Source: Haloarcula salinisoli (lineage in GTDB: Archaea > Halobacteriota > Halobacteria > Halobacteriales > Haloarculaceae). Taken from it: DNA of 64,000 nt. Of this stretch, positions 11,749-40,609 are shown piece by piece. The first letter of the stretch is position 1, and every line of letters starts with the position of its first letter. The notes beneath the pieces are model-generated. The model made no database searches and was not told the DNA's origin. It saw only the letters and a list, made by a program, of their open reading frames with translations. The translations under genes were made by a program, and so were the position numbers. Location: NCBI RefSeq assembly GCF_019599405.1, contig NZ_RKLQ01000002.1:434001-498000 (forward strand). Reading direction: 5' to 3'.

Positions 11749-12137
11749 CTTGTCTCTCAGTACGTTCGGTTCCTCGCTGCTGCTACGCGGTTCCCTGCGG
11801 TCACCGCTCCGCTTCGAGACGATTCGCTCCGCTCATCGTCTCGCTACTGCTCTGCGGCTCCCGTCGGTCGCCGCATCGCTTTCGAGGCCTCCCTGCGGTC
11901 GGCCTCGCTACTGCTTGCGGGTCACTGCGGGCTCGCGGCGCTGCCGCTCGCCTTCGAGGCGCTTCGCGCCTCGCTTTCCCCGCTCGCAATCCGAGACACC
12001 TCCCCTCGTCGTCGGGCGGCTTTGCCGCCCGACTGCTTGGGGGACCTTCGGTCCCTCTCTGGTCGATGTCTCGCTTGCTCCACGGCTCACTCCGTTCGCC
12101 GTTCCGTCGAGGGTTCTCCTTTCAGTCGAACCCTCGC
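11749..12137 (-). repeat. Hairpin mosaic between vapC and the convergent transporter gene
   Basis: No gene is credible in this 389-base stretch. It is a chain of inverted repeats read best on the minus strand: 11787-11807 (GCGGT stem, loop GACCGCAGGGA), 11815-11843 (9-bp CGAGACGAT, loop GAGCGGAGCGA) and 11883-11907 (7-bp CGAGGCC, loop GACCGCAGGGA). Further units are 12009-12031 (10-bp stem, 3-nt loop), 12082-12102 (5-bp ACGGC, loop GAACGGAGTGA) and 12108-12136 (9-bp CGAGGGTTC, loop GACTGAAAGGA). The last one ends one base from the stop codon of the transporter gene. A 19-nt hairpin with a GAA triloop lies near 11953-11971. Confidence 0.75.
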
Positions 12138-39792: not shown

Positions 39793-39874
39793 GGTAGAGT
39801 TTCGCGCTCGTCTTTTGCTATCGAGGCACACAGTCAGCAAGCACCGCTAGCAGTGGACGCCGACAACACTGCAA

Positions 39875-40142
39875 ACAGCCAGAAAGCCCCGACCAGCTAC
39901 ACTCGGGGGGCTCGCTGCGCTCCTCGCTCGTTTTCACTCGCTGTGGTGCTTACGTCGCCCGCCTTCGTGTAGCTGGCCGCCCCTTTCAGTCCCACCCAGT
40001 GCTGTTTACCCAGCCGGCATGGGGTGGACTGAAAGGGGCCGGTGGCTCGACGAACCCGGACGACGAAAGCACTGGACCGAACGCAGTGAGGGAAGCGCGC
40101 AGCGAGTCCTGGGAGTCGAGCCACCGGGGGCTTTCTGGCTGT
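39875..40142. repeat. Branched inverted-repeat element able to form a four-way junction
   Basis: Four nested pairs of arms were found. The outer helix is ACAGCCAGAAAGCCCC (39875-39890) with its complement at 40127-40142, 16 bp perfect. Inside are three hairpins: CCAGCTACAC (39893-39902) with 39967-39976, 10 bp; GCCCCTTTCAGTC (39979-39991) with 40027-40039, 13 bp; and CCGGTGGCTCGAC (40039-40051) with 40115-40127, 13 bp. The third also pairs further inside and holds a GAACGCAGTGA loop. The arms meet almost without gaps, so the strand can fold as a four-way junction. ORFs reading through it look spurious. It may be a structured RNA or a mobile, non-coding DNA repeat. Confidence 0.8.
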
Positions 40143-40219
40143 CCACAAATTTTCTCGTATAGCTATCTCTCCCTGCTAGCGCCACCGCACTTTATTTAGC
40201 AGCCGTCCGACGCTCCGGT

Positions 40220-40609
40220 ATGTCATACCGCGCGAACTACGCCCGCTGTTCGTTCCAGCAACATCTCGGTCCGTCGGCGGACTCGCTGGACGTGGCGTGG
40301 GCGGACTTCTCCGGAGACACCACCGACCAGGTCACGTTCACTGTCCCGACCGACGCGCCGGTCGAGCCGTACGTCCAGATGCAGGTGTACGACGTCGGCG
40401 AGTTCAGTCACGAGATACGGGTCAACGGGACCGAACTGACGGGCTTTGACATCGCACCCGGCGAGGGCTGGCAGTACTGGATGGACACCATCGCCGACAC
40501 ACAGCTCCAGCAGGGGGAAAACACCATTCAGTTCCGACGGGACCGGGACACCGACGACGCGTTCATCGTCGGCACGGCCGTCGTCCACTGGAAGGAACCC
40601 GTCGAGTAA
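40220..40609 (+). CDS. Conserved haloarchaeal protein (DUF7383-like)
   Basis: The 129-residue protein begins MSYRANYARCSFQQHLGPSA and has a jelly-roll-like set of strands: DQVTFTVPTDAPVEPYVQMQ, VYDVGEFSHEIRVNGTEL, then GWQYWMDTIADTQLQQGENT, and it ends VVHWKEPVE. The pattern resembles a carbohydrate-binding-like beta sandwich, and I remember a haloarchaeal family of this kind (DUF7383, tentative). No signal peptide is present. A TATA-like ttatttagc lies about 21-29 bases before the start. Function is unknown. Confidence 0.6.
   Translation: MSYRANYARCSFQQHLGPSADSLDVAWADFSGDTTDQVTFTVPTDAPVEPYVQMQVYDVGEFSHEIRVNGTELTGFDIAPGEGWQYWMDTIADTQLQQGENTIQFRRDRDTDDAFIVGTAVVHWKEPVE

Follow-up and report, generated by a model that had tools for sequence, protein, structure and literature searches.

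What kind of sequence occupies the interval between nadE and a small conserved gene in Haloarcula salinisoli, and what does its elaborate secondary structure represent? An earlier note on the 64,000-nucleotide stretch of DNA analysed here (the window) placed a non-coding element capable of forming a four-way junction at positions 39875-40142, between these two genes, and the positions of the neighbours are as described. Homologous copies and the compensatory changes among them support the existence of a real non-coding element with four helices. The element is one copy of a widespread DNA repeat of conserved structure, dispersed and subject to gain and loss, and is most likely a folded-DNA mobile repeat. 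If this is the case, haloarchaea harbor a widespread element that is recognised via a perfect four-way DNA junction whose arms are interchangeable, which would provide a direct test bed for the reading of DNA shape by enzymes.

The outer stem of the predicted fold, P1, consists of the terminal inverted repeats ACAGCCAGAAAGCCCC (39875-39890) and GGGGCTTTCTGGCTGT (40127-40142), which are, as claimed for this 16-bp repeat, exact reverse complements. Stem A (39891-39902 and 39967-39978) encloses loop A (39903-39966); stem B, with the conserved arms GCCCCTTTCAGTCC (39979-39992) and GGACTGAAAGGGGC (40026-40039), encloses loop B (39993-40025); and stem C (40040-40051 and 40115-40126) encloses loop C (40052-40114), which contains GAACGCAGTGAG. 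The arms of stems A and C are nearly free in sequence and always paired. The four stems meet with zero unpaired bases at the junction, in agreement with the "almost no" of the earlier note. Of the stem lengths given there (10, 13 and 13 bp), the first corresponds to the 10 contiguous pairs of stem A, the 12 positions of which also include an A.C mismatch and one further pair; the division between B and C was off by one pair, these stems comprising 14 and 12 bp, respectively, both without mismatch. The element extends beyond this core, through a left tail (39851-39874, minus strand) and a right tail (40143-40175, plus strand), each a triplet-phased variable spacer, to CTAG sites at 39847-39850 and 40176-40179 that form its limits. 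The start codon of the following gene, at 40220, is a short distance downstream of the right CTAG.

The 268 bases between the outer ends of P1 fold as DNA with an energy of -90.8 kcal/mol (z -9.2) that was matched by 0 of 200 shuffles, so that the nesting is indeed unlikely to be due to chance. Loops A and C are near reverse complements of each other as well, and the DNA model without constraints therefore folds into a long rod, relative to which the four-way form is 8.6 kcal/mol weaker; the greater predicted stability of the rod in isolation is a point against a folded junction. The four-way form was chosen on the strength of covariation in homologues, not of energy. Two short motifs had been highlighted as shared with other repeats of the window. 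One of these, GAACGCAGTGAG, recurs at 8 sites with at most one mismatch, compared to 0.4 expected, whereas the likeness of GACTGAAAGG to a motif at 12117 is at chance level (4 sites versus 1.4 expected) and sits in the loop of another hairpin.

Smaller hairpins are also common in these genomes. Double-hairpin elements, that is, paired perfect hairpins with stems of 8-13 bp and 3-base loops, mostly 4-7 bases apart, were observed in the Haloarcula rara blocks L143-L222, at L116, L126, L127, L131 and L139, and in the window at approximately 12013-12060. Altogether, 1.6 Mb contain 254 triloop hairpins, compared to about 49 in shuffled sequence; 37% have GNA/TNC loops, 60 adjacent pairs are formed, and 26% lie within 400 bp of an end motif, a zone that makes up 3% of the sequence. 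The same hairpin pair recurs inside several copies of the four-armed element.

Copies of the element were found throughout Halobacteria, as anticipated in the earlier note, which had proposed the search. In the H. salinisoli genome, BLAST yields 93 matches, many of them full length, distributed over about 50 places; the P1 end motif (an exact match to 13 of its bases) occurs 135 times and the inner motif 83 times, compared to 0 and 1, respectively, for the reversed controls. The family is present in 44 of the 60 relatives searched with BLAST, with end-motif counts that are very uneven among related genomes, from 0 to more than 150. A scan of 84,980 species with stem B returned, among the matches listed, haloarchaea only, and in a phylum-wide sample there were only stray matches outside Halobacteria; no match was detected in the phage records searched. 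The copies are typically intergenic, with 84 of 98 end motifs outside predicted genes, the gene calls in the relative being those of a crude script. The closest copy to that in the window within the same genome is 85% identical, and the genome contains no near-identical pairs of copies, which is odd for an active mobile element and counts against mobility.

Presence and absence of the element at orthologous sites was assessed by comparison with about half of the chromosome, approximately 1.6 Mb, of one relative, Haloarcula rara. Site L108 spans 452 bp in H. salinisoli and 2 bp in H. rara, and site L018 spans 314 bp and 4 bp, respectively; L133 is the reverse case, with the element in H. rara and an empty site in H. 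salinisoli. No target duplication was seen at sites that are empty in one species. At the empty L108 site in H. rara, a single CTAG consists of the overlapping stop codons of two convergent genes, and CTAG sites beside elements frequently serve as the stop codon for a convergent gene. At L007, L012, L017, L111 and the nadE site, the element is found in both species between conserved flanking genes, and the arms, loops and tails are largely unrelated. Local rewriting or conversion must therefore matter as much as jumping, and the loci can be old while their letters are young. Other hairpins inserted inside the element are tolerated.

Dispersed intergenic copies with a conserved structure could also be expected of a REP/BIME-like site with a chromosomal function, for example, as a target of a nucleoid protein, a topoisomerase or a resolvase such as Hjc, or as a recombination hot spot, for which movement would be incidental. 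The natural substrate of Hjc is a four-way DNA junction, which agrees with this possibility in general terms. However, end motifs are distributed so unevenly between related genomes, and copies are missing at orthologous sites, so we consider a chromosomal site of this kind unlikely.

Evidence on the structure itself comes from the 31 full-length copies, which were aligned without reference to structure and then scored for pairing. The fold is conserved: 98.0% of the 1659 pair cells are paired, compared to only 33-50% when the structures are slid by 1-3 columns. The requested covariation check on the helices gave 261 two-sided changes, compared to 74.8+-6.2 in shuffles, and the result was repeated in the copies from other genomes; because copies within one genome are related, the number of cells does not equal the number of events. 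P1 and stem B are nearly invariant in the 31 copies and thus uninformative alone. Stems A and C show about 250 two-sided cells and 2 one-sided cells, and the two-sided changes affect 23 of their 24 pairs. At most positions, the 109 distinct A/C arm pairs include each of the four Watson-Crick combinations, and G.T pairs amount to about 1%. In 112 matches from other genomes that were picked by stem B alone, at least 10 of 12 pairs are formed in 89% of the A stems and 81% of the C stems, compared to an average of 5.2-5.6 of 12 pairs in the swapped-arm control. The copies thus keep the fold while almost freely changing two arms, which points to recognition by shape rather than by letters. The scarcity of wobble intermediates suggests that pairing is maintained at the DNA level, via selection or via arm-to-arm copying, and the conserved structure is most likely that of DNA.

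Under the second of these routes, the arms would be re-made rather than selected: template switching or hairpin repair during replication would copy one arm onto the other (quasi-palindrome correction), keeping the arms perfect while they drift. Two-sided changes without intermediates, the wholesale replacement of arms and loops at shared sites, and the many perfect pairs of triloop hairpins that these genomes contain are all compatible with such copying. However, the arms obey position-specific rules, with T at position 8 in 96% and C at position 7 in 81%, and the junction lacks unpaired bases in copy after copy, both of which point to a selected function and make copying improbable as the sole source of the pairing.

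A structured non-coding RNA that contains a four-way junction and spread as a repeat, with the helices kept for a function in trans or as a terminator, would likewise be expected to show strong covariation, and the RNA folding energy of the 268 bases is very low (z -11.0, with 0 of 200 shuffles as low). RNA helices are, however, expected to contain more wobble pairs than stems A and C, where such intermediates are nearly absent. Furthermore, the unit is quasi-palindromic, so that both strands fold alike, insertion of hairpins inside the unit is tolerated, and no Rfam family matches above the gathering score, the best being miRNA families far below the threshold. An RNA function for the family accordingly appears quite unlikely. 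Derivation from a coding transposon, which the terminal inverted repeats and dispersed copies might suggest, is highly improbable: the element does not look like a transposon fragment, its length varies without respect to frame, the single Y1 transposase gene in the genome does not have these ends, and none of the open reading frames across this non-coding element, already judged not to be protein-like in the earlier note, is kept among the copies.

The explanation that we favour as probable is that this is a non-autonomous, non-coding, interspersed haloarchaeal DNA element that acts via its folded shape and is moved in trans. Folding would occur in single-stranded DNA or in an extruded cruciform, where the conserved end repeats would pair as stem P1, the conserved GGACTGAAAGGGGC arms would pair as stem B, and the hairpins A and C, nearly free in sequence, would complete a fully paired four-way junction. 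A trans-acting recombinase would recognise the junction together with the conserved flanks, and would insert the unit into intergenic DNA or remove it, often beside a CTAG and without target duplication. Movement in the folded state and reading of the junction by a protein are the parts of this scheme that we infer. That no transposase with these ends was found counts against the scheme; near the end motifs read, no autonomous transposon sharing them was seen. As a candidate mover, the canonical IS200/IS605 transposase TnpA was rejected: the H. salinisoli genome has a single Y1_Tnp gene, the 3.4 kb surrounding it contain no end motif, and Y1_Tnp is absent from the genomes G182 and G242, which contain 20-48 end motifs. 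In support of a mobile repeat, other families contain end units arranged in tandem and a version with one hairpin. The latter, GGACTGAAAGGGGC-hairpin-GGGGCTTTCTGGCTGT, is a half element that occurs commonly in one such family (L224-L249, in G182 and G209), and the four-armed element resembles two of these halves placed face to face around stem B.

Several known systems resemble the element in part. REP/BIME sequences are described as many-copy intergenic palindromes, with hairpin pairs in inverted orientation, that are proposed to move as folded single-stranded DNA through TnpA-REP (RAYT). REPs, however, are 20-40 bp long and have a conserved stem and a tag, GTAG or CGTC, whereas the element comprises 268 bp, with a conserved junction and free stems. 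It contains no palindrome of 20-40 bp tagged with GTAG or CGTC, its conserved feet being GAAAGCCCC and GGACTGAAAGGGGC, and no associated Y1 (TnpA-REP) transposase was found at the Y1 locus of its own genome or in G182 and G242. The attC sites of integrons are recombination sites that are recognised as folded single strands, with complementarity kept while the sequence varies. By analogy, the element may be recognised in a similar manner, but an attC site forms one imperfect hairpin, carries R boxes and lies beside cassette genes, whereas the element would fold into a four-way junction, has long inverted ends and comes without a cassette.

Like MITEs, the element has terminal inverted repeats (16-bp exact ends), but no target site duplication, a usual although not universal feature of MITEs, was found at two empty sites. 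In the openly accessible literature, we found no description of this repeat family. Its nearest described counterparts are the small mobile repeats (SMRs) SMR-A and SMR-B of Haloquadratum walsbyi, which, like the element, are haloarchaeal and non-coding and have inverted ends but no target duplication. SMRs are about 110 bp long (80 bp in one family), occur in up to 54 copies, with those of the same type commonly more than 95% alike, have inverted terminal repeats unrelated to known transposons and an unknown mode of movement, and, in the case of SMR-A, target PATEs and IS605-type elements (PMC3119063). No four-way junction, free arms or phased tail is described for SMRs, from which the element is set apart by description, not by sequence (HqIRS40, 41, 42, 43 and 55). 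PATEs (palindrome-associated transposable elements) also are non-coding haloarchaeal elements with palindromes, but they differ from the element in having no inverted repeats at their termini and in their relationship to IS605-type ends (PMC3119063).

The most surprising part of the element is the register of three in the tails, which is not predicted by a folded-DNA repeat. Starting from an end motif (at most one mismatch allowed), a tail leads away from the core as far as a CTAG; this tetranucleotide is about sevenfold depleted in the H. rara genome. The offset of the first CTAG equals 1 modulo 3 at 56 of 60 ends in H. salinisoli, 52 of 58 in H. rara and 23 of 25 in other genomes (131 of 143 in all three sets), and the register holds at 39 of 49 ends in further genomes. 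Both tails of the window copy obey it, with offsets of 40 (left) and 49 (right). Over most of the tail, one position in three carries a pyrimidine in 74-78% of cases, and this preference extends to families in which the CTAG is mostly missing. The length difference between orthologous tails is a multiple of three in 17 of 18 comparisons; tails of equal length are 33-89% identical, compared to 93-100% for the adjoining host DNA. The register is strong and recurs across independent genomes, and any haloarchaeal genome can serve to check it.

The register has no established explanation. Coding was rejected as the simple answer: between orthologous tails, all three codon positions show substitutions at even frequency, and neither a start codon nor a conserved peptide was seen in the tails; stop codons are mildly depleted (16 versus 34 expected from composition), a general depletion that affects all frames. 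A single template of the DGR type does not fit, C and T being mixed at each tail place, and copying from elsewhere yielded no convincing matches in the 1.6 Mb and the loci examined. Hypermutation was also discarded: 5 of the 9 equal-length orthologous tails are 59-89% alike, so that drift with occasional replacement is the simpler account. Nor was later selection for the third-base pyrimidine borne out, with transitions and transversions equally frequent there. That a machine stepping along DNA by triplets causes the register is a guess. A tentative and rather doubtful extension is a class of mobile elements read by DNA shape, in which the junction would be the recognition unit, with two sequence-free arms, and the distance from the end to the CTAG would be counted in threes, with pyrimidines favoured at each third position, by something such as a protein filament or another triplet-advancing machine, not the ribosome. 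Tandem arrays of the end motif and tail were observed in the flanks of L011, at the H. rara site of L007 and at G209:C1:1889822-1890161; their units, 45 bp in Haloarcula and 54 or 57 bp in another family, mostly fit the register.
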